Below are positions 2,444 through 64,000 of a stretch of 64,000 nt of DNA, one piece after another. This DNA comes from Dillenia suffruticosa (lineage: Eukaryota; Streptophyta; Magnoliopsida; Dilleniales; Dilleniaceae), in assembly GCA_033439265.1 (NCBI GenBank), contig JAVTVX010000002.1, forward strand, positions 4,908,001-4,972,000, read 5' to 3'. The stretch's first letter is position 1; the number at the start of each line of letters is the position of its first letter. The translations under genes and the position numbers were made by a program. Below the pieces are notes generated by a model. It had not been told where the DNA came from, did not search any database, and saw only the letters and a program-made list of their open reading frames with translations.

Positions 2444-5400
2444 ATGCCACCAGAGACGGTTCTGAATTCTATATTCACTTCTCCGGGCAAGAACCTGAGA
2501 GGACTCAAGAGTTTGGGTTGTAATGAGGCCGAAGACTTCTTCAATGACGACGAATTGGCTCTCCGAAAAGCCGAAGAAGCAGGTTCTTCCTTGCTTATGT
2601 CATATCTTTTATCTGTTTCTGGAAATTAATCTCATCCGAAGAACAAGAAAACTCCTCTAACTTTGAATTCCTTCAATAATTAATGTAATGTTGTTTGGTG
2701 GGATTAAGTGATCCCAACATATTATAATGAAAAATACTAGGAAAGAATTATGGGGCATCATGGAGTCGAGGAGTTGGAGGGGGCAGCTGCGGAACACCCG
2801 GAATTTAAACAAAGAATATGGTTAGGTTTGTGGCATCCCATTTTCGAGGTCATCCCTTAATCTTAGATCTTAAAGGGTGGAAGGTGGGTCCTAAAGCACT
2901 CTATTGCTTAATTGTTAGGGCCCATCTTTAAGCCAATCTCTCTCTCTCTCTCTCTTTCTATGGTGGGGTTTAGACATTTTGATTAGTGATCATCCCCTCT
3001 AATTAATTTTTCTTTTTTTCTTTTTTTCTTTTTAATCATAGGTGCTTTCTTTCTTCTTTTCCTTCTTTACATTTTTCTTTATGGTGTTGAATAGCCGCAC
3101 AAAAGATAAGAAAATTAGTTGACCTAGTATAGGTATCCAATGGATTTCATCATTGTACTTTTCTCAAGGGAACAGAAGAATATTACTAGAAGAGAAAATT
3201 TGTCATCATTATAAAAGACAATCGAGGACATTATAATATCTGGACAACCTGGTTGAGCTTTATTAAAGGATTGGATTTAATGGGATTTTGGATTTCTCTA
3301 GTATAAATTTTTCTATAAATTATTATATAACTAACTTTTTTTCAAATTTTTAGTCAAATTTCTATAAATTTTTTTGGTCAAGTAAAAAATTCTCAATCTT
3401 TAATCTTAAATTTCAAAGAAAAGCTATCACCAACATATCTAATTATTGTACTATTCTTGGATCATGCTAAGACCTTTTTTTTTTAATATTACACTAACAG
3501 AATTAAAATTTAAGATAAAAACAAAAAATGAAAGGAAAATGCAGCCATTTCACCTTATCGATTATTAAAGTTATATCTGCATTTCCTATATCAAAAATTT
3601 TAGGAGTAATGTAGAGTAACATTTGGAGGAGAAAATTCTTGGAGTAATACCTGAAAAATAAGACATTACAATTTCATTGGATTAGCAAATAAAACAAGGG
3701 GAGAAGGAAATGAAATAATAAGACAATAGAATTACTAGTCATGTGACTTGTTTATGGAGCTAAAACTGTCTCCTCACATTGATTTGATGCTTTACATCAT
3801 GTAATTATTCACTTAAGTTAAAGATTGATTGAAGCAAGTGATGTGCCAAAATAGGAAATTGTAAAACATGTTCATTAACATGTTCACCTTTCTGTAAAAG
3901 TGCAGCATAAAAATACATAAGGAAGCACATAGTTTCCTTCTCTTCATTTGAGGAACAGACAGGTTACACGAAAAATGATCATATTCCTGTTCTCGACATT
4001 TCCATGCATAGATGACATTATCTCTGTTGTTGTGGCGATTACAGCTTCAAGAAGGTATCAAGCAGCTGACTGGCTGCGTCAGATGGATCAAGGTGCATCA
4101 GCGACACTGCCCAAGGAACCTTCGGAGGAAGAGTTTTGTCTTGCACTCCGCAATGGACTTATTCTCTGCAATGTTCTCAACAAAGTCAGTCCTGGTGCTG
4201 TTTTAAAGGTCTCTGATCGATGCTTCATGACATTTAAATTAAACATTACTTTTGAAGAAGCTTAGATGAGATTGAAAGTTGCTAATGGTCATACCATTCA
4301 CTTCTGCTTCAAACATTACTTGGTTGTAGGTGGTGGAGAACCCTGTCATTGATTACCAATTGACTGAGGGAGCCGCCCAATCTGCAATTCAATATTTTGA
4401 GAACATGAGAAATTTTCTAGTAGCTGTTGGAGAAATGAAGCTCTTGACTTTTGAAGCCTCTGATTTGGAAAAGGTAATTGTTCTTTCTTTTCTTAAGCGT
4501 CTCTTGTGCTACATGACTGATTTATTTAGTTTCAACCCAGTGATTTGCACCTTTAGTTCTGAGATAATCCTAAGGTTGAGTATTGCCTTGAGGTCATCTA
4601 TACACCGCTGCAAATGAAAATTCAGTACTCAATGTTAAGACAGAAGCTTCAACTATTTACTGTTTTCAATTACCTGAATCTTGTTCTATTCTACATGCGG
4701 ACCTTGTGGCATTTTATGTTCTTTTAGGGTCTTTTCAGGAATTGAGAATCTTTGTTGTACAGGGAGGCTCATCAATCAAAGTTGTTGACTGCATACTCTG
4801 TCTAAAAGGTTTTTATGAGTGGAAGCAGGCTGGTGGTGTTGGTGTTTGGAGGTATGGTGGTACTGTGAAGATCACCTCCTTTCCGAAGCGGCCGCCATCC
4901 TCATTGATGAGCAGTGATAGTGCTGATGAGTCACTGGATGATTCTGACTCATCTTATTATGAACAGCTTGTGGAATTTCTCCATCTTTCCACTGAGATCT
5001 CATTCGAGGAATCAAAAGCAGTGAATGCTCTCACTTTTCTCTTTGATCATTTTGGGCTTGAGCTCCTGCAAGCTTATCTTACAGATAAAAATGGAATGGA
5101 AGGCCTCCCTCTGAATGAAATGGTAGGTAAGATCCAACCTTTCCTTTTGTTTCAAGAGTGTAAATAGAATAGAGTTGGTGTGTATAACTTCTTCAGGAAA
5201 ATATTTTTAAATTGAAATTTGAAAAAGACAAATGACCGGAAAATGTTCAAATTTTTACATGCCGATGATGTCATTGCAAATCAATATAACAAGTATATTT
5301 CTTCAGGTCTATAGATGTTCCTGATTGTATATTTCACTAGTCAAGGATGGTGAAAAGCAGGAACTTTAATTTTCCATTCTTGCATAAAATTTGAGCTAGT

Positions 5401-6323
5401 TATGCTGTCAGAGACTGATAATTGTGTCTTTAGTCTATCATACTAAGTCTTTGTGGTTTAATGGATCTCTCTACTGTTATCCTAAGCTATGGCTGTTTAC
5501 ATTTATGATATAAGTTGTACCACCGCACAGTGCATGGCATGATTGGTTGGAAGTGCTTATTATCTGAAGATGATTTCCAAGGAAATTTCTTTTTAATGTC
5601 TGATATGGTTTTTATGTCAACTGTAAAAAGTGTATAGATTCTGATAATATACAATTGTAAATGACATGCAGGTCATTGATACTGTACTCAGGAAGATTGT
5701 TAAAGATTTCTCAGCTCACCTTGCTTCTCAAGGCAATCAGGTAATAGCAGTGTTGAGGTTGTTATCTTTGCAATTGCTTATATATGAGTGTATGCTTGAT
5801 TAAATAAGCATTAAAGACAAGAATTCTGGTCAGAACCAAATCAACTTGTTAAATTTTCTATTTTTACTTTATATAGCTAGGACAGCTCTTGAAGAAGGTC
5901 TTGAAAGGAGATTCTGGTACTTTATCGAAATCACAATTCATAAAAGCCATCTCTCAGTATCTTGGTCAGAGAAACTATTTGGAATCGTGTATTTTCTCAA
6001 AATTCTGCACCTGTGGTGGAAAATTTGATGGCCTCAGAAATAGGTCTAGTCAGCCTGCTGGAAACCTGGAAGTACTTGATGCCCAAGAAGAAAGGCTCGA
6101 GGTACTAATTTCTTCTTTTGAACTTACCATTCTTTCAGTTTTGTTCTTTTCTCTATGGGGATGGTTGGCTGCACCACTGTTCTCTCTGGAGCATTCTGTA
6201 ACACCCAGAAGTGGGCAGGGTGAAACAATGCACTTGTCCACATTGACTATGGAAGATTAAATATGTATATATATATAATTTCACAGAGGTGGAACAATTT
6301 ATGAGTATGAAGTGGGTTAAATA

Positions 6324-6370
<47 letters not shown>

Positions 6371-9300
6371 AAGTATTTTGTGGACCATTTACTCCTGTAA
6401 AGTTGGTACATTATGTTCCATAATCTTGCACTGCACATTGACTTTGGAAACTCATCTCTTTTAGCTTGTGCATTAAGATAATGAATTTGTGATTGACGCC
6501 AACGTATTTTATGCAAAACACGTTTGTCACAACATGCGACTGTTGCTGCTTTGTTTGTGTAGCTCCTAATGTTGCCATATCAACTGCGGCCATTAAAATT
6601 TTGATTCTGTTGCAATTTTACATTAATCCTTTTTTTTCTTGCCTTTTGGAATGCTTTTAGGAGCTAAAGACATATTACCTAGAGATAAGACGAGAAGTTC
6701 AACAGATTCAATCAAATTGGGAGCAAGAAGTACAACGATTTGGTAAGTCTTGTTATCTCCTCCTACATCTGCTTTGGTAGAGAAAATTTGGTTATCTATC
6801 ATCTCGGTTTACTAGCTTCCCATTGGTCTGCAAGTACAACAATTTTTGTTTTCTTTTTTGCCTCAGGGCATCATATAAAGGGCCTTGAACTGGCCTCATC
6901 TTCTTACCAAAAGGTGTTAGAGGAAAATCGCCAACTGTATAATCAAATTCAGGACCTAAAGGGTAGGTTGACAACATACTAGGCATTTTGATTTTTGGTC
7001 AAAAGCTCTATTAGTTTGTCTTAGTTGGACTTTTACTGATTATTTTCTTCCCTACAGGGACTATCAGGGTCTACTGCAGAGTAAGGCCCTTCCTATCAGG
7101 AGAATCTGATAAACAATCTACCGTGGATTATATTGGAGAAAATGGAAACATTATGATTGTGAATCCTAAAAAGCAGGGAAAGGAAGCAAGAAGGGTATTT
7201 TCATTCAACAGAGTCTTTGGAACAAATGTGACACAACGTATGTTATCTTTCTGTATATTATCATCTATTTTTATTTATTTATTTATTTATTGGCTTTATA
7301 GAACAGCAGGAAATGCCAGTGCTATTCTTGGCTTGGACTAGTTTTCTTGAAGTTACAACTCACCATGCTTCTCATGGTCAAATGCAGAGCAAATATATGC
7401 TGATACTCAGCCACTGATTAGATCGGTCTTAGATGGCTTCAATGTTTGCATCTTTGCATATGGCCAAACTGGCTCTGGGAAGACGTATACGATGGTAATT
7501 CTTCAGAAACTGCAGTTTCAGATTACACATTTTTTGCCATTGAAAGAATTTTTTTTTGGTCATACGTATAGCAACTATATTGCGTTTTCTTTTTCTTGGG
7601 TAAACATTGTTTCATTATGTGCTAATCAAATGATTCATTTTCTTTTTCCTGACATTAATAGAGTGGACCTGATTTGACATTAGAAGAGACTTGGGGTGTA
7701 AATTATCGAGCATTGTGTGACCTATTTCAAATATCAAAGGCAAGGATGGATGTCATAGAATATGAAATTGGAGTCCAAATGATTGAAATATACAATGAAC
7801 AAGTGAGAGATCTGCTGATCATGGATGGTTCCAATAGGAGATATCCTTTCAACATTTTTTATAGTATCATATATGTGAGCTCCACAGATTCTGTATGCAA
7901 ATATAAGATGGACTAGCATTGTCAGATTATTGTCCTTTTTTTTGCGCAAAACCTTAATCACTTGCACATTAGATATACGCAACCATTCTCAGTTGAATGG
8001 TCTTAATGTGCCTGATGCGAGTTTGGTTCCAGTTCAGTGCACCCAAGATGTCTTTGAGCTGATGAAAATTGGACAAAAGAATCGTGCTGTTGGTGCTACA
8101 GCTCTGAATGAGCGAAGCAGTCGCTCCCACAGGTTTGCCTAAAACGCCTCATTATTTTTTTTCTTTTCATATTTACTATTTCTGTCCACTGCTTTTACCA
8201 CATTCTTGTGCATCTCTTTCTCCTTATGTAGTGTCCTGACAGTGCATGTCCATGGCAAAGAGTTGGTCTCTGGATCAATCTTAAGGGGTTGCCTTCATTT
8301 GGTTGACCTTGCTGGAAGTGAGAGAGTAGATAAATCTGAAGCTGTTGGTGAGAGATTAAAGGAAGCACAGCACATAAATAGATCACTTTCTGCACTTGGG
8401 GATGTTATCGCTGCTCTTGCTCAGAAGAGTACACACATTCCTTACAGAAACAGCAAGCTTACTCAAGTATTGCAGGACTCATTAGGTAATTTATTTTAAC
8501 ACTTGAACATGACCTCCTTTTCTTCTTTTTTTTTGTGGAGATAATGGTGCTATGGTTAGAGAAGCTACTGTTTCTCCGCTTTTGCAAAATCAGCTTCTTC
8601 CCTAGAATCCTGATACCCTGTGGTTAGTCACTTGGACATAGGTGGGATTTTGTTGAACTGTGTAAATACTGGTGTTTCTACTTCTTTCATTCTGATAACT
8701 TTTCTCTCCATTGAACTTGTTTGGTGTGTCTTGGGTTCAGCAAAAACCTGCTTCCATCCACAGATATTTTCATGACTAGAAAGTAATTATTTCATTGCTT
8801 AGAAACCTGACTTTCAATCTACCACTACCCAGATTTTGTTTAGTAGCATCTCTTCCTCATCACATTAGTTGAAAGTAGTCATTTCATCACTCTTTTTTAT
8901 TTTACCTTTACAAAATAATTACTCTAGTGGTCAATAATGATCAATCTCTTTGTAGACATTGGTAAGATTTCCCCAACATATATCTCACATGAGGCCTGAG
9001 GGTTGGAGGGAAAACTGGGGGCTACTAGGTTACAAGGGCTTGTGGTTCATTTTGCTAGTCTTTATTAACATTAGTTTTGTATTGTGTGCATGTCCTGGCA
9101 AAACATTTTTGCCTAAAAAAAGACCTAAAAATGAGAAGTGTCTCATAATTATTATGATCTTGTTCCAAAGTGTTTTATTTTATTTTTTTCTGTTTTAAAT
9201 TAATTTGACCATTTCCTTCTTTCCTTATAGGTGGGCAGGCTAAAACCTTGATGTTTGTTCATATAAATCCTGAAGTTAATGCTCTTGGTGAAACAATAAG

Positions 9301-10898
9301 CACACTCAAATTTGCTGAGAGGGTTGCATCTGTAGATCTTGGGGCTGCTCGATTTAATAAAGAGACCGGTGAAATTCAAGATCTCAAGGATGAGGTTTTG
9401 CCCCATATTTCATTCTTTTATGTCTTGCTAATTCTTCTGTTGATTTTAAGAGAAGCTTAGCATGTAAGGTTTTTCTTTTTTTTTTTTTTGTTTTTTTGTC
9501 TTTCTTTTTTTAGATTTCAAATTTGAAACTGGCATTGGAGAAGAGGGAAGCTGAACTTGAACGAACGAAAGTTTGTAATACTCGATCCACAGTAGAACCC
9601 AAAAAGCCAAGAAATGTTTCTCCATTACCTATGCCAAGACATGGCACCGGTGCCAACATGAAACCTGAAAGCTTCCAGCGACCAGCTGATGAACCTAGAA
9701 TCTTGGAGGTAAATCATAACATCTACATTCTATCAAGTACAAAATTATTCGTCAAAAAATTTGGTATTTATTCCACCCATTTCTTTGAACAAAAATTCAT
9801 CCATTTGTTGCTGTAGATAAATCTTTAGCATTGAATTATTACTGAAGCATATGCTGCTGTCATATAGAATACCCTATGCTTTCTTAATGAAGAAAAAGAG
9901 CCTGGATTTTGACACTTGATGTGAAAACTTGAATTTTAGGGAAGAAGCTGTTCTTCTGGAAAACAAAGAAAGTCGCGCTTTCCTTCTGCTTTTGCAGACA
10001 AGGAGGCAACATCAAGGATGCCTTTTCTACTAGAAGAGAAAGTTGCAAGCTCTGGAAAGCCAAGGTCACCGTCGCCTCCTGTTAGGATATCATTATCCAC
10101 AGACCGAGGGTCCCTTTTCAGAAGTAGGAGCAAACCCGATGCTGTTGACAACCCACCAATTACAAAACAGCCCTTTCCAGCTATAGTGTCAGTAAATAAA
10201 TCCATTGCTTCAGGGCCAACAATTACATCGAGGGTTGGCAATTCAAAAGGTTTATTTCCTCAAGAACCAGTGAGACAGGAAAATGCTGCTGATGCATTCT
10301 TCAACACACAGAGGAACAACCATCGGAAGCTTAACCAGGAGCACGAAGATGAGCAATTTAAGCAAGCCCTCACTGTAAGGCAAGGCGGCATTAGAAAAAG
10401 CAAGAATGAAATTAAGGTGAAGCCAAGGCATCAAGGCTCGGTTAGGGTTCAGAGGTCTGATTTGGCACCAACATTGCTTTCTGATTCTGATGGAAATGAA
10501 AAGTTCGAGGAGGGTAGAAAGAGTGATTTCTCTGAGCCTGAAAATCAACATGAGCCTATTGTATCACCTGTTCATAGTACTATGAGGATGAAAAAACTGC
10601 CGCATAACTACTCAAGAAATCCACAGAACCATGAAGCAAGGTACTAGTTATATCTTCTATATTGAAATATCGAGCTTTCATTTGAACCTCATGTCCTATA
10701 ATTGATGTCCTAAGCAGAAGATGGCGTTTTACTTGCAGAGTGCTAGTTCATGCAGTGGAGCCTTTACTTGGGGGAAGAATTAACAGTAAGTTTCCAAATG
10801 GTGGAACTCGGATATTAAAGGATGGCAGTGACAATTCCATGCCTGTATTCCGAAGGAGCCGGTCTTCACCACGTGGAAATTTTATTGTTTATCCTTGA
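2444..10898 (+). CDS. Kinesin-14 family motor with N-terminal calponin-homology domain
   Basis: Seventeen coding exons: 2444-2582, 4045-4208, 4330-4473, 4763-5122, 5672-5740, 5877-6101, 6661-6742, 6867-6962, 7058-7237, 7388-7494, 7662-7840, 7968-8132, 8232-8485, 9231-9394, 9514-9708, 9940-10640, 10739-10898. Phases sum to 1127 codons plus a stop. Residues ~50-170 form a calponin-homology domain ([11 protein letters not shown] onward), a plant hallmark of kinesin-14 and usually an actin-binding fold. A coiled coil and kinesin-14 neck (~365-426) run straight into the motor at [11 protein letters not shown] (427). The motor has P-loop GQTGSGKT (512-519), switch I NERSSRSH (629-636) and switch II DLAGSE (662-667), all intact. 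A second coiled coil follows (~770-800), then a basic Ser/Pro-rich tail. Family members are minus-end-directed microtubule motors that can link to actin. The exon 11/12 intron is AT-AC (U12-type). The gene looks functional; the exact subclass letter is not assigned. Confidence 0.95.
6326..6370. repeat. (CA)n(TA)n microsatellite in kinesin intron 6
   Basis: Pure CA dinucleotides from 6326 to 6360, followed by TA to about 6370, between the exons ending at 6101 and beginning at 6661. Confidence 0.95.
7841..7967 (+). other. U12-type AT-AC intron in the kinesin motor domain
   Basis: This 127-bp intron begins ATATCCTTT, a full match to the minor-spliceosome 5' splice site, and ends GCAC. A branch-site-like AACCTTAAT (7950-7958; consensus TTCCTTRAY) places the branch A 10 nt before the 3' splice site. 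No GT-AG choice restores the conserved motor sequence, whereas this one joins AG+A to give Arg and continues in frame with [16 protein letters not shown]. The call is read directly from sequence and is strongly constrained by protein conservation. Confidence 0.9.
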
Positions 10899-10967
10899 AC
10901 TTTTCAAAATATTACGAAGTGTTGTATTTTGTTTGATTTAATTGTTGAGATCTTGTACAGTAGCGGT
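10899..10967 (+). other. Start of kinesin 3' UTR
   Basis: AT-rich sequence right after the TGA stop at 10896-10898. The polyadenylation site is not obvious and may lie in or beyond the tandem duplication that follows. Confidence 0.5.
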
Positions 10968-11237
10968 ATAATCCTACAGGGTGGAGTCATTTCTTTGCGA
11001 TGAATTATGGAGATGGAAATAATCTCTTCTTCACTTACTTCATCTCTGTATTCCTGTCATTGTATTCCTACTCGCTATATGTGGTTCCATCATAAGTGTC
11101 CTAATCATATAATCCTACTGGGTGGAGTCATTTCTTTGCGATGAATTATGGAGATGGAAATAATCTCTTCATCTCTGTATTCCTGTCATTGTATTCCTAC
11201 TCACTATATGTGGTTCCATCATAAGTTTCCTAATCAT
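10968..11237 (+). repeat. Tandem duplication in kinesin 3' UTR or flank
   Basis: Two adjacent copies, 10968-11108 (141 bp) and 11109-11237 (129 bp). They differ by a 12-bp indel in the CTTCTTCACTTACTTC segment and about three substitutions. The high identity shows a recent local duplication. Confidence 0.9.
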
Positions 11238-12045
11238 ACTCAATACAATGTGCTTGTGTGTTTTGTAAACATGTGAAGGATATAGATGCTTAACGATTGA
11301 TGTTTTTCTGGTTACCCTAGTTATGTAAATGACCCGAGTTGTAAAGAGTGAAAGAAACCTCATTCTCGATCTGCACCCGAGTTGAGCGAGTTAGAACAGG
11401 TTCCAAATCAATTATTTTGTTTTGTTGATCAAGATGAACTGAGTTTTAAATAAACATTACTCACATAAATTGAACTATATGTTGCGGCTCGATTCTTTTG
11501 CAAACGGTGAGCAAGCTATTCCATGGACCTTGTCGCAAATAATTTATAAACAATTTGATTCATTTTTGAGTTTCGTAATAAATAATTAGTTTTTATGTAA
11601 TTTATATCGGATCACTTGGTGTTTTTGTTTATATTAACCTAATATGAGCTATTTTTTCTCTTATGCTCATCTAAAAAGTTGTAAAGTTAAGCAAAATACC
11701 CAAAATTAGAACAAGATGGAATATATTCATATGGCAGTTTCTTACAGGAACACAAATAGAGAACCAGTTAAAAAGTTTATGGGTATGACTAAATACAGAT
11801 GTTTAGGAATTGATTTTGAAATTTCACTTTTTATTGGAATAGTCAAATTTAGACACATGGTCATGAAATGTCGAGAACAAACTATACATGGGAAAGATTT
11901 AGGAAAACAAAAACTAATTCTTGTTTAAGAAGACCTCACCATTTGCCAAACAACCGCTGCTTGAACCTCTTTCTTGAATTCATTTTATAGAATCTACAAT
12001 GAGATCAAAAGAGGAAACAGATTCTTCCTTCTTCCTCAAAGACTC
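11238..12045. other. Intergenic, no gene supported
   Basis: AT-rich spacer between the kinesin and the DUF868 gene. A 70-codon open frame at 11716-11928 resembles no family I know and is not conserved-looking. The last ~100 bases are probably promoter and leader of the next gene. Confidence 0.5.
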
Positions 12046-12101: not shown

Positions 12102-13022
12102 ATGGTCTCAGAATCAAGTATGTTGAGGGATCAGCTTCAACAAGCTCAGGCATTGTCCCAGGAACAACAGGCTTCAAAAGAGAAATCCGACGACGATTTG
12201 GCAAGGAGCAGCAAATCATGCATTGTGACATGTCTGTACCAAGCCAAATTTGGTGACTCGTTTTGTTACGTGACGGTGACATGGTGCAAAAACTTCATGA
12301 ACCACTCTCTCACCATATTGGTTGAAAATGCGTCTGAGGACAAGAGTGTTAGTTGCAAGATTGACCTAAAACCATGGCAATTTTGGAGCAAAAAGGGTCT
12401 GAAATCATTCAACATGATGGATGACAAAAGGGTTGAAGTCTTCTGGGATTTTCGCGCAGCCAAGTACTCTGATTCATCCGAGCCTCATTCAGATTACTAT
12501 GTTGCCCTAGTCTTCAAAGAAGAGGTAATCTTATTGTTAGGAGATCTCGAAAAAGACGCATTTAAGAGAACAAAAGCAAGACCATCAACAGAAGACGCCT
12601 CATTAGTCTACAGAAAAGAGAACGTGTTTGGAAAAAAGTGTTTTTTCACAAAGGCTATGTTCATTGAAGGCAAAAAAGATCATCACATTATCATAGAGAA
12701 TTCGCTTTCGGGGCCTGGTGATCCTGAGATGTGGATTAGTGTTGATGGAAAATTGTTGCTTCATGTCATGAATTTGCAATGGAAGTTCAGGGGAAATGAG
12801 ACTCTGCAGGTTCATGATAAATGTGTACAAGTCTTTTGGGATGTGCATGATTGGGTGTTCAGTCACCCTGGTTCGAGCTACGGCTTGTTTATTTTCAAGC
12901 CTAGTGAGCCCAAGGGTGCGCCGGAGGGTGGGAATGATCACCACACAATGCATGAATCGGTAGCGGAGCTCTCATCAGATGCAGAGTTCTCTCATTTTGT
13001 CTATGCTTGGAAAACTGAATAA
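12102..13022 (+). CDS. DUF868 family protein, single exon
   Basis: An uninterrupted 306-codon frame. After a polar, Gln-rich N-terminus (~1-36) the protein matches the plant-specific DUF868 pattern: SCIVTCLYQAKF then YVTVTWCKNF (~39-64), a KRVEVFWDFRAAKYS segment, YYVALVFKEE with LLLGDLEKDAF, RKENVFGKKCFFTKAMF, and the C-terminal hallmarks LQWKFRGNETLQV and VQVFWDVHDWVF. Length is normal for the family (~300 aa), and most members are intronless. The molecular function is unknown. The N-terminal 36 residues are unlike the members I recall and the second Met (codon 7) could also serve as start. No signal peptide or membrane segment is seen. Confidence 0.9.
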   Translation: MVSESSMLRDQLQQAQALSQEQQASKEKSDDDLARSSKSCIVTCLYQAKFGDSFCYVTVTWCKNFMNHSLTILVENASEDKSVSCKIDLKPWQFWSKKGLKSFNMMDDKRVEVFWDFRAAKYSDSSEPHSDYYVALVFKEEVILLLGDLEKDAFKRTKARPSTEDASLVYRKENVFGKKCFFTKAMFIEGKKDHHIIIENSLSGPGDPEMWISVDGKLLLHVMNLQWKFRGNETLQVHDKCVQVFWDVHDWVFSHPGSSYGLFIFKPSEPKGAPEGGNDHHTMHESVAELSSDAEFSHFVYAWKTE

Positions 13023-18879: not shown

Positions 18880-19400
18880 CCGTCGGGCGAAGAAGAACCG
18901 GCCCAGACCCGCGGGCGCGTGACACGCACGCGCCAGAAGGCGCGTCTGCTAGGCGCGTGGACTTCACGCTCCACACAGGCGCGTGAACGGGCAGGGGGGT
19001 CAGCGGATCGGGTCGGACCCTGACCCGGACCGACCCGCAAACCGACCCGACCGGGTCGGACTCGAACCCGTTGACCGGTCAGTCGGGTCAACAGTGACCC
19101 GTTGACCGGGTCAGTCGGGTCAACCTTGACCCGTTGACCGACCCGGTCAGACTCGGCTCAACACGGCTCAGCGCGTGAGGTCGCGTGAGCCGCGCGCCGC
19201 GACTGGGCGCGCGTGAGCCGAGCCGCGCCAGGCGCGTGGCAGCGCGTCTGAGCCGCGCCGCGCGTCCGGCGCGTGAGCCAGACTGCTGCCAGCGCGTGGA
19301 GGCGCGTGGCAGCGCGTGAAGGCTCACCGCCGGCGCGTGGCGGCGCGTGGAACGCACCGCCGGCGCGCGGCGGCGCGTGTGGGCCCCGGGCGGCGCGTGA
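18880..19400 (+). repeat. GC-rich short-repeat leader inside the Copia element
   Basis: About 500 bp that is far more GC-rich than anything else in the window. The first part (to ~19150) is built from GACCCG / CGGGTC words in both orientations; the second from more than a dozen copies of GCGCGTG-like words. It lies between the primer-binding site and the gag remnant, i.e. the untranslated leader where packaging and dimerisation signals usually reside. It is CpG-dense and probably heavily methylated. Confidence 0.85.
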
Positions 19401-24933: not shown

Positions 24934-26990
24934 GGAACAGATGACAAGCAGTTCTTTAGGTCAGCCTCGGGCCTTGTAGAATCAACATGACTAATCTCTC
25001 TTAGCATTGCTACGACATTCTTCATGGTTGGACGCTCGTCAGCACGAGTGCTGATGCAGAGAAAACAAACTTCGAGCGTTTGGAGCATTTCATGCATTTG
25101 TGGGTCAGCTCTTCCTCTCAGTTTCTGATCTAGAATGTCGACAGGGTATTTGTGCTCTGCAGATGCTCTCTAACTTGCGCCACCAGGCAGGGTTGGATCC
25201 AATGGATGCCTTCCTGTCAGAACTTCAAGAAGGACTACACCGCAACTGTACACATCACTCTTCTCTGTAATCCGCTGCATTGAAGCATGCTCTGCAGAAG
25301 TACCCAAAAAAAATGAACATATGAAATCAAATATTAAACAAAATCATATTACGAAATGCTAGGTTGAAATATTACCAGGAGCCATGTAACCTAGGACCCA
25401 GCAAGAAGAGGTTTCTGGTTCACTTTACTGAACTCATCAGAACCTGTGACATTCACAAGCCTAGCCAGGCCAAAATCAGAAGATAAAGCTCGACGTTAGG
25501 ACCCAACAAAACACTCATAGCCTTAACATCACCATGCATGATTGCAGGCACACAATCATGATGCAAGTAAGCTAAAGCATGAGCCACTCCCACCAACACA
25601 TCATATCTGGTTTCCCATTCAACTGCACCTTTCCCAGCTTCCTTGAAGAAGAGAACTCAAGCTTCCATTCGATAGTAATCATAGAAGAAAAGTTTCAGGC
25701 TCTGATTTGAACCCAACCCAACAACCTGACAATATTTCGATGCCGGACTGAACCCAGAGTTCGAATTTCAGACATGAATGCTCCAGACTCTTCAGAGGAC
25801 CACATTTTCTTCACTGCCAGAGAAGGCATTGTTTCTGAGATCTAACAATTGTTCCTTACTGCAAGAGAGGATTTCTGCTGGAATTGTGCCAGAGAATTGA
25901 TTATCCCTGGAACCAGTTTGGCAATTCTGATAATAACCCAATACTAGAAGATATTTGACCTATAAACCTATTGCCTGAAATATCTACAAATTGCAGGCTT
26001 TGAGGTAACTTATCTGGGAAAAGTCCAGAAAGCCCATCTGAATGAAAATCAAGAAACTTCTAGTTTTTCACACCCAGATATGGAAGGAGGAATTCCTCCC
26101 ATAAAATGGTTGTTGCTCAAGCCTAAAAGGTTCAGGCTCTTCAACTTGCCGATCTCTGCTGGAATACTCCATGCCAGCCTGTTGTAGTTTACTCGAAAAT
26201 GATACGGGTTGGTGCAATTCCCTATATCCGGTGGTATGAAACTGGATAATTCATTGGAGAGAAGCAATAATTTGGTCAGATTTTGCAATCCAAAAATCTG
26301 CCTCGGTATGGGACCAGTGAGGTTGTTGTAGGAGAGATCAAGAGCCTGAAGATTTTGGCAATCAGAGAGACTTGCTGGAATGTTGCCTGTAAGTCTATTT
26401 TGCCGGGCAAAGAACAGAGTCAAACCCGTCAGTTTTATAAATAGTTGCCAATCTCCCAAGGGCAGCTCACCCTTAAGATTTTGATTCCCGCCTGCTCTGA
26501 AGACTTCAAGCTTGCTCAATTTTCCAATGCTTTTGGGAATTTCACCACTCAACTGATTGTCATAATAGTCAGATAGACTAAACTGGAAAGGTTTCCAATG
26601 TCTGAAGGGATTCCACCTGTGAGCGAATTCGTGTTGAGAGACAATGTCTGCAGTTTCATAAGCATGCAAATTTCAGCTGGGATTTCGCCTGAGATGGAAT
26701 TATTGCTGATATCAATGTGAACCAGCTCATGATATTCTCCAAACTCTTTTGGGATAGTCCCCGTGAGATCCGTTGATGAGAGAACAAGCGACTTTAGTGA
26801 CTTGAGTGATTGAAAATTTGAAGGTAATGGACTCTCCTCTACTTCGCCATTTGAGTTGCAGACTATCCCAAACCACCCGCAGGGACTTAAGTCTGCTGAA
26901 TTCCATGAACTCAGCGTGTCTTTCGAGCTGTTTAGACTGCTCTTCCATGTAAAAGAGCTTGACCTTGTTCTTCAATGGATAAACAAAGGG
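24934..26990 (-). pseudogene. LRR receptor-like kinase pseudogene, RGI/RGFR clade
   Basis: Minus-strand remains of a receptor related to Arabidopsis At4g26540/At5g56040, root-meristem-growth-factor receptors at the plasma membrane. From the N-terminal side (~26990) there are the cysteine-bearing cap, leucine-rich repeats (e.g. LSGEIPKSIGKLSKLEVFRAG, then TGNIPASLSDCQNLQALDLS), a kinase stretch with HGDVKAMSVLL (catalytic loop), GYMAP, SDVY and RADERPTMKNVVAMLREI. An 84-bp GT-AG intron (25292-25375) survives between MAP and EHASMQR, so the copy is not retroposed. Several central LRRs, the transmembrane region, the N-lobe of the kinase and part of helix G are missing, and the frame is broken repeatedly. 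The signal peptide is not recognisable. Non-functional. Confidence 0.9.
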
Positions 26991-53100: not shown

Positions 53101-56100
53101 TCCCCATGTTTTCCCTGATCATTATGCAATTTCTAGGCATATAAATATAGGATACTGCCATATATTAGGGCCATTCCAACCTTGATTTGCTTTAGGCCCA
53201 AGCTAGATAGCCTTTGATTGCCAAGCATTGCATAAAATAGGCGTGCAAGCCATGCTCCGACCAATTAGAGGTAGTCACATCTGACTCCGAAGAAAATTAA
53301 GAATGCACCACCCTAAAATAAAGCATTTTCCTAGTTATTATATATTCTCTCGTATATTCTCATTGTTTGACTCATCTTGCTTCTATCAAGCTTGCAACAG
53401 TATTATTCAATGATACTCGTTCGGTTCTTTACTTTTTTTTTTTTTGGTTAATGCTTATTTCTTTGCTTGAGTTCTCAAATGAAGTGTTAATAAATTACAA
53501 CATTCTTGGGGCAGGTGTAGCTGGGGGGGCAGCATCAGGGAAGACTACTGTTTGTGATATGATAATCGACCAACTCCGTGATCAGCGTGTTGTTCTTGTT
53601 AACCAGGTATACCATTTAGTTGTTTTCTATCTGCTAATTAGCAGTTAGACAAAGTTCAGTTATTAGAATTTCATTTTACAAATTGGCAAGCATTATTGCT
53701 GATTCTCGTGAAATTGATCGACTTTAGTTTGGGGTTAATAGTTAGAGTTTGTATCTGCATTTCAATGGATCCAGAGCAGCTGACTTTGTGTTACATAGTG
53801 TTGGCCAGTAATATGATGTATGGCTCAGTTATTAGAAGTGGACTCATGCCTATCTACCTTATTCTATGCCTCGTGGTAATTCCCAGTATAAGTGGGGGAT
53901 TCCATGGAAATGGTTTCGAAGCCCATTCCATCATGGTGCATTCATGAGGTAATGGTGTCTTGACAACTGACAATGTTAGGCCAGGATGTTTGCTGTGGGG
54001 GCTCCAGCATGGTGAGGCATCTTCTGGCTTACCAATATGAAGCAACTTGTTGGTCTAATGTCCACCAAAGTTGGATGAAAGTCTAAAAAACAAAAAAAAA
54101 GAGGTCAGAAGCACTATTGCTAAGAGTTTCCTAGTGTCTAAAAGTGGTCCTCTTAACTAGCTAATTGTAATTTTCATAGGTTATGGCTTGCATGGCTTGA
54201 ATGCCTGGCTTGATGAGCTGGTTGATATCCATCTTGATCATCTAGGATGACCTAATAAGGCCACCCATCATTACAACTTTTGTCAGTAAAATGCATGGTC
54301 ATGGATAACGCTATTGCATCATACTATGTTATGTCATGTCCATGCTGCACATGGTTTTTAGACATCATACAATAGAATATGTAATTTATAATAGTGTAAA
54401 ATTTTGTTAATTTTGCCATGCCACCGTGGCCGTATGGTGTCACCATATGTCGCATAGCTCATGTTTATGTTGATGCCTCATAGGGTGAGAACCATATTCA
54501 AGTTTCAATATGCATTTGTTATAGACAAGGCATCCAATTTTGAGAACTCGTGCTTCATAGCATGTCTTTGTGAATAGATGCAACCCCTATAATGCAGCCA
54601 TGCAATCCCATGAAGGAGATATGCCCACTCATAATACTATTGTAGAATTTGGATAGGTTGCTTGAGCATGTAAACTTGTTTTCATTGTCATTTAGGTGAT
54701 CATTTCTCTTAAATCTTGAAATGTGCCTGTGGGTCTTATTCGAGTTTAATCCACGGTGATTATATGAGATGATATGCAGATGCCAATAAGATCCTCTCAA
54801 ATCAATTGGGGTGTTAATATTTGCTTTTGACTAGGAATAGATGCTATTATGTCTTTGATCATCTTTCCATATCATGGCAATAAAAATTATGGTCCATCTA
54901 TAGGTGACCCTTAATGAGGCATGTGATCAAACTCCCTTCACAGTTGAAGGAATCTCTTTGGCATCTGCTAACATGGTCCATCTGTATGTGACCCTCAATG
55001 AGGCATGCGATCAAACTCCCTTCGCATTCCGAGGAATCTCTTTGGCATCTGCTAATATTTATGGTTTTTCTATGTTCAGGTTTTCCACCAGAAAATAAGA
55101 CTATCAAACCAGGCATAAATTTCAGCTATGGACAGCTTTAGAATTAGCGTGATACTTGCTCTAGAACTAACTTTAAGTGAAGCTAGATTTGAAGAAATTT
55201 AAACTTCATCGGCCTTATCTTGCCAAATCCCAATGGATAAACTTCAAGTACTTTATTTACCATTTCTTGTAGGTGGAAGTTTCTAGCCACAGTATGGATT
55301 AATCTGATTTTAGCTCTTTTGCATGTCTAAGAGATTACACGGGTGTCAGCTTTTCTGAATTGCTGTTGATTCTCGATCATGTATTTTTTTAGTTCTTTTT
55401 TCACCATTTCATAAGACCAATTTGTTACCTCCTGTCGTTGGCTGCAAGAATAAAATTTCATCATTGTTTCTTTCCTGTGCAATACAAATGATATTTTTAC
55501 AAGAGTATTGGGTTGATTAAAAGATTGTTACTTCAAGCGTTCAATCCTTTTTCTCTTCTCTTTGTTCTATTTCTTTATTTCATGCATATTTCAGTGCATA
55601 AACTTGACTGGATATTACTTACCATGTTCTACCCAGAAGAACTCTTATTTGTTGAAATTATACTTGTCCTGAGAAATACCTGTTCAGTTTTAATATTTCT
55701 GGGTTCCAAATAAATGTTCCAAAGCAATTGTAACCATTAAGATTTTCCATTGTGGAACCTTGTATTTTATTGTGAGTGATGTGCCTTATCTTCATGCTAA
55801 CACAGCAGCAGCTTAATTTAGCACTAATTTGCAGGTCTTGTTACTACCATAGTCTTCTGTCATTTTCTTAAACATTGTGTCCCTTTTTACCTTCCATGAC
55901 GCCTTTCCTTATTGCATAACTTGTCAGTTCGTATAGTATTATTAAGAGTGAACTTGCAGTCTGGCTCTGGTGGAAGAGGTTTTGTTATTTGTGTTATCCA
56001 ATGAGACCAAGCCAGCTTTATATATTTATTTCTTTCAAATTTTGCAGGATTCTTTCTATCTCAACTTGACAGAAGAGGAACTAGCACAAGTTCATGAATA

Positions 56101-63209: not shown

Positions 63210-64000
63210 AATTAGACAAGTAACCAGGTCGGTTTGGACCCGAAAACCGGCCCGCCTGGCCCGGGTAAAGCCCGGACCCGGAACCGGCCCCTGCTACATT
63301 AAATCAGCCCGGCCCCGAACCGTTTACTGTAGCGGCCGGGCTGGTCCCAAAAAAATTTGAACCGGGAATCGGCCCGGTTCAGAAAATAGGCTCGGACCGG
63401 AATCGGCCCGGAACCGAAACCGGCACGGAACCGGAACCGGCCCGGGCCCGGAACTGGCTGGAACCGCCGGTTCAGGCCCGCCCCAGCCCGCCCGGTTCCG
63501 GTTCAAATTTTCCCCGATTTTTTTGAATTTTGAAAATTTTTCAATTTTGCCCCTCCCAACAGCTATAAAATGGCTACTTTTAAGGTTATTTTGGTCCATA
63601 GGGTCAAAAAATTTTCCTATAAATACCTTATACCCCATTTCCAAAATCTCCACAACAAAATCTCTCTTTCACTCTCACATCTACATTCTCTCAATATTAC
63701 TACATTCTCTCAATTTTCATTAATTTTCAATTATTATTTCCTTTATATTACCATTTTTTATATCATTTCCATCATTTTCTACACCATTACCTACACCATT
63801 TTTTATACCATTTTCATCAATTTCTACACCATTTCATCACCTTATACACCATTTTAATTTTCTCCATTATCTATATTTCCACCATTATTTACATTTCCAC
63901 CAATTTCTACACAATTTCTATTATCTTATACCACATTACCTACACCATTTTTTATACAATTTCCATCAATTTCTACACCATTTCATTATCTTATACCCCA
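63210..64000 (+). mobile_element. Probable 5' part of a hAT-like DNA transposon, cut by window end
   Basis: From about 63225 to 63510 the sequence is packed with CCGG, GGCCCGG and GGAACCGG words in both orientations, as in the subterminal regions of many plant hAT elements. A TATA-like CTATAAATACC (about 63617-63627) and a CT/CA-rich leader follow, as upstream of hAT transposase genes. No transposase is reached before the window ends, and neither the terminal inverted repeat nor the 8-bp target duplication could be fixed. The alternative is an unrelated GC-rich repeat. Confidence 0.45.
63725..64000 (+). repeat. Imperfect tandem array of TTTCTACACCATT-like units
   Basis: Words such as TTCTACACCATT, TTATACCATTTTCATCAA and CTTATACACCATT recur every ~15-25 bases to the window end, within the putative hAT leader. 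Confidence 0.7.

Follow-up and report, generated by a model that had tools for sequence, protein, structure and literature searches.

Which intron interrupts the motor domain of a kinesin gene in Dillenia suffruticosa, and which spliceosome would remove it? The question arises in a stretch of 64,000 nucleotides (hereafter the window), where an initial annotation had placed an AT-AC intron at 7841-7967 and had spelled out both its start and its CAC end; coordinates and letters are confirmed in the sequence (Table 1). The intron is very probably of the U12 type and lies within the motor domain. This central claim, that the motor of a CH-domain kinesin contains an AT-AC intron of U12 type, finds its backing in the motifs, in an open frame of 1127 aa, in the Pfam domains and in the best profile score among the end pairs scored, while the initial annotation as a whole is partly supported.

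Table 1. Positions, within the window, of the predicted kinesin gene and of the elements of its probable U12-type intron.
Feature	Position	Strand	Basis
CH-domain kinesin gene, 17 coding exons, 1127 aa	2444..10898	+	predicted model, exon ends set by eye
Upstream exon 11, ends with two bases of next codon	7662..7840	+	gene model
AT-AC intron, very probably U12 type, 127 nt, phase 2, intron 11 of 16	7841..7967	+	motifs, gene model, profile score
Putative U12 5' splice site ATATCCTTT, 9/9 to RTATCCTTT	7841..7849	+	motif match
In-frame TAG met on intron retention, codon 607	7914..7916	+	gene model
Putative U12 branch-site word CCTTAATC; second A = 7957	7952..7959	+	motif match
3' terminal AC	7966..7967	+	sequence
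Downstream exon 12	7968..8132	+	gene model

Joined together, the exons of the predicted gene give 3384 nt in one open frame with a single terminal stop, and 15 of the 16 introns are GT-AG, the one at 7841-7967 being the only AT-AC. The predicted product carries a CH domain (PF00307, 36.8 bits, cut-off 26) upstream of a kinesin motor domain (PF00225, 367.3 bits, cut-off 29.3), and its top two solved-structure matches by sequence, within the best 60 of 157 matches, are KIFC3 and then a kinesin-like calmodulin-binding protein. With these two domains and these matches, the product would fit a flowering-plant CH-domain kinesin-14. Across the junction between exons 11 and 12, a one-residue gap on each side suffices to align it with KIFC3. 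Presumably, some Arabidopsis kinesin-14 proteins resemble the product of AT-AC splicing closely at this junction, and at least one lacks these residues.

Other features of the window were recorded around this gene. Downstream of its stop codon, 10967-11238 holds a tandem duplication: copies of 80 nt, at a spacing of 141, are 90% alike, and copies of 72 nt, at a spacing of 129, are 97% alike. The neighbouring open frame at 12102-13022 on the + strand encodes a DUF868 domain (331 bits), and another, at 26049-26672 on the - strand, has leucine-rich repeats (LRR_1, 54.3 bits) and is perhaps, at a guess, part of a receptor-like kinase. Tandem repeats that are GC-rich in a window of 35% GC lie at 19052-19140, 19301-19399 and 63359-63466, and two 84-nt tandem copies matching at 89% occupy 54889-55055. 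No match was found in the window by Rfam at gathering thresholds, and no tRNA by a tRNA search.

What, then, points to the U12 class? The 5' splice site of U12 introns follows a highly conserved consensus, RTATCCTTT. At the 5' junction (7840/7841) the sequence reads G/ATATCCTTT, the sole exact match to this consensus on either strand of the window, and at the 3' junction (7967/7968) it reads TTGCAC/ATT. U12 introns have AT-AC or GT-AG termini, here AT and AC, together with a branch site resembling TTCCTTRAY near the 3' end, a place taken by CCTTAATC. From its second A, the likely branch point, to the last intron base the distance is 10 nt; the initial annotation had put a branch-site-like word 10 nt from the 3' end. 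Against this, the two leading T of the longer consensus are replaced by AA. The T-run of the intron is located upstream of the branch word, which is followed by ACTTGCAC, so that no polypyrimidine tract precedes the 3' end, as befits a U12 intron. Extended by its preceding base, the branch word becomes ACCTTAATC, which by our own comparison agrees at 8 of 9 positions with the published plant consensus TCCTTRATY and carries the upstream A that the same source links with better splicing (PMC5932401). In its folding the intron RNA is unexceptional: z is 0.13, and 108 of 200 shuffled sequences fold equally well or better.

Two broader properties of U12 introns bear on this assignment in opposite directions. 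The intron falls after nt 1745 of 3384, just past the middle of the coding sequence, which counts against the U12 reading since plant U12 introns are described as leaning toward the 5' half of genes (PMC2426677). Its phase 2 agrees with a reported tendency of U12 introns to avoid phase 0, a tendency given as not significant in soybean, rice and maize (PMC7367187).

Taken singly, such motifs are unremarkable in 64 kb. RTATCCTTT, counted on both strands, occurs once against 2.56 matches expected by shuffling, and CCTTRAY-N7-AC occurs twice against 1.95 expected; of 300 simulated 64-kb windows, 42 contained even the full combination. It is the placement of the combination that exceeds chance: within the 310 nt that require an intron, about 3.1e-4 combinations would be expected to begin, before frame and domain fit are considered, a rough figure based on the 4 combinations that arose in 4 Mb of simulated sequence under a composition model that includes the 7841-7967 intron itself.

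How far does the protein itself dictate the choice of ends? End pairs were scanned with donors at 7790-7934, acceptors up to 8011, an intron length of at least 50 and any dinucleotides, and 3870 of them keep the frame open into the downstream exon, including 36 AT-AC, 27 AT-AG, 7 GT-AG and 5 GC-AG pairs. Scoring of the junction fragment against the Pfam Kinesin profile was confined to the seven GT-AG pairs, two of the 36 AT-AC and one of the 27 AT-AG. The best of the pairs scored was AT-AC 7841-7967 at 116.2 bits, followed by AT-AC 7841-7961 (114.5 bits), AT-AG 7843-7972 (112.5 bits) and the GT-AG pairs (108.2, 107.9, 104.7, 103.5, 103.0, 93.4 and 84.5 bits). Over the full motor, the AT-AC model reaches 367.3 bits versus 333.5-359.3 for four GT-AG models. 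The AT-AC pair thus leads the best GT-AG competitor by only about 8 bits and the AC at 7961 by 1.7 bits, and the profile argues moderately against the GT-AG rivals. What singles out 7841-7967 is the set of U12 motifs with their spacing. The assertion that only this choice preserves the motor holds against the seven in-frame GT-AG pairs and is slightly overstated with respect to the AC at 7961, which keeps the frame and scores nearly as well.

Splicing to that nearer AC, in place of 7967 or alongside it in a tandem that keeps the frame, overlaps with the main U12 reading, of which it is a variant. In spite of the frame and the score of this AC we consider its use quite improbable, and 7967 is preferred, because no more than 4 nt separate the AC at 7961 from the branch A (7957). 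Such a distance is shorter than U12 introns normally allow.

An ordinary U2-type GT-AG intron with shifted ends, for instance 7864-7972 or 7828-7972, would leave the motor loop slightly longer or shorter. Both pairs keep the frame, and a U2 branch site could be provided by a TTAAT word; we nevertheless hold this reading to be very improbable. Their profile scores lie about 8 bits below that of the AT-AC pair, and their donors agree with the U1 consensus at two of seven positions each, against four or five in 12 of the 15 GT-AG introns of the gene. The weak donor alone does not exclude them, as the remaining three GT-AG introns score 6, 3 and 2. Stronger cryptic donors fit less well still: the one at 7803 costs the motor some of its conserved residues (84.5 and 93.4 bits), and the one at 7875 breaks the frame with the AG at 7972 and gives 103.5 bits with the AG at 7992. 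Hardly credible, finally, is removal of the AT-AC intron by the major spliceosome: U2-type AT-AC introns do exist, one having been described in a GFP reporter in Arabidopsis (PMC5873924), but both U12 motifs are present at 7841-7967, and the class is reported to be set by the 5' site and the branch site rather than by the termini (PMC3584512).

Motifs, spacing, open frame and domain fit can be read directly from the DNA, and for the preferred U12-type intron at 7841-7967 established knowledge of splicing suggests how they would be used. U11 snRNA, and then U6atac snRNA, would pair with ATATCCTTT, and U12 snRNA with CCTTAATC, leaving one A unpaired; the minor spliceosome would then splice exons 11 and 12 together in phase 2, completing the kinesin motor domain. 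Excision of U12-type introns depends on U11, U12, U4atac and U6atac. Constitutive removal in this manner is the most likely course. Were the intron retained, translation would meet the stop at codon 607, inside the motor, so that retained transcripts could yield no full motor; by the same general knowledge, transcripts keeping the intron would be expected to decay. Might the intron then act as a gate, held by the minor spliceosome, on a motor that possibly connects microtubules with actin? Slow splicing would lead to retention and truncation at codon 607, rarely used nested sites that keep the frame (GT 7864 to AG 7972, or AC 7961) would give altered loops, and minor-spliceosome activity would tune division or growth. 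We think this improbable, and any regulatory use of intron retention in this kinesin gene is speculation.

AT-AC introns constitute a rare but established class, of which 7841-7967 is an ordinary further example. The rarity claimed for them in plants is upheld by an average of 0.06% of introns across 121 species (PMC6310983); representative transcripts of Araport11 (Arabidopsis) include 81 (PMC5716242). One database lists 269 U12-type introns for Arabidopsis and puts the AT-AC share of this intron class at 26% (PMC7367187); a much lower AT-AC share, 4.8%, is quoted from another source (PMC5932401). The warning that gene finders restricted to GT-AG would mis-model this exon pair is supported, non-canonical introns being completely absent from a first gene set predicted ab initio for Arabidopsis Nd-1 (PMC5716242). 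Here a wrong join could go unseen, because seven in-frame GT-AG substitutes keep the frame open. The finding matters mainly for a correct gene model and leaves knowledge of splicing unchanged; with it, the genes that may need the minor spliceosome for their expression come to include a cytoskeletal motor.

Relatives of a 206-aa part of the motor were sought in viral and prokaryotic collections, where none was confirmed among 9 and 20 pattern-matched stretches, respectively; given the nature of these collections, this null result is uninformative on plants. Among the literature matches listed, no title or abstract opening describes a plant kinesin with a U12 or AT-AC intron, which is no claim of absence from print, and the word kinesin has no occurrence in the main text of the splicing papers examined. 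In Table 5 of a fruit study (PMC8547070), a kinesin named KIFC3 has an alternative 3' splice event that is conserved across four species; nothing links this event to the gene at 2444-10898 or to the 7840/7968 junction.

Closest on the side of the protein are the KCH kinesins, CH-domain members of kinesin-14 described as a flowering-plant group, in which, as in the product predicted here, a CH domain lies upstream of the kinesin motor (PMC1434745). On the side of the intron, the nearest counterpart is intron 4 of plant CBP20, which likewise combines AT-AC ends with a U12-type branch site and stands alone among ordinary introns; it differs in its host gene and in having been published as conserved in the plants studied there (PMC5932401).
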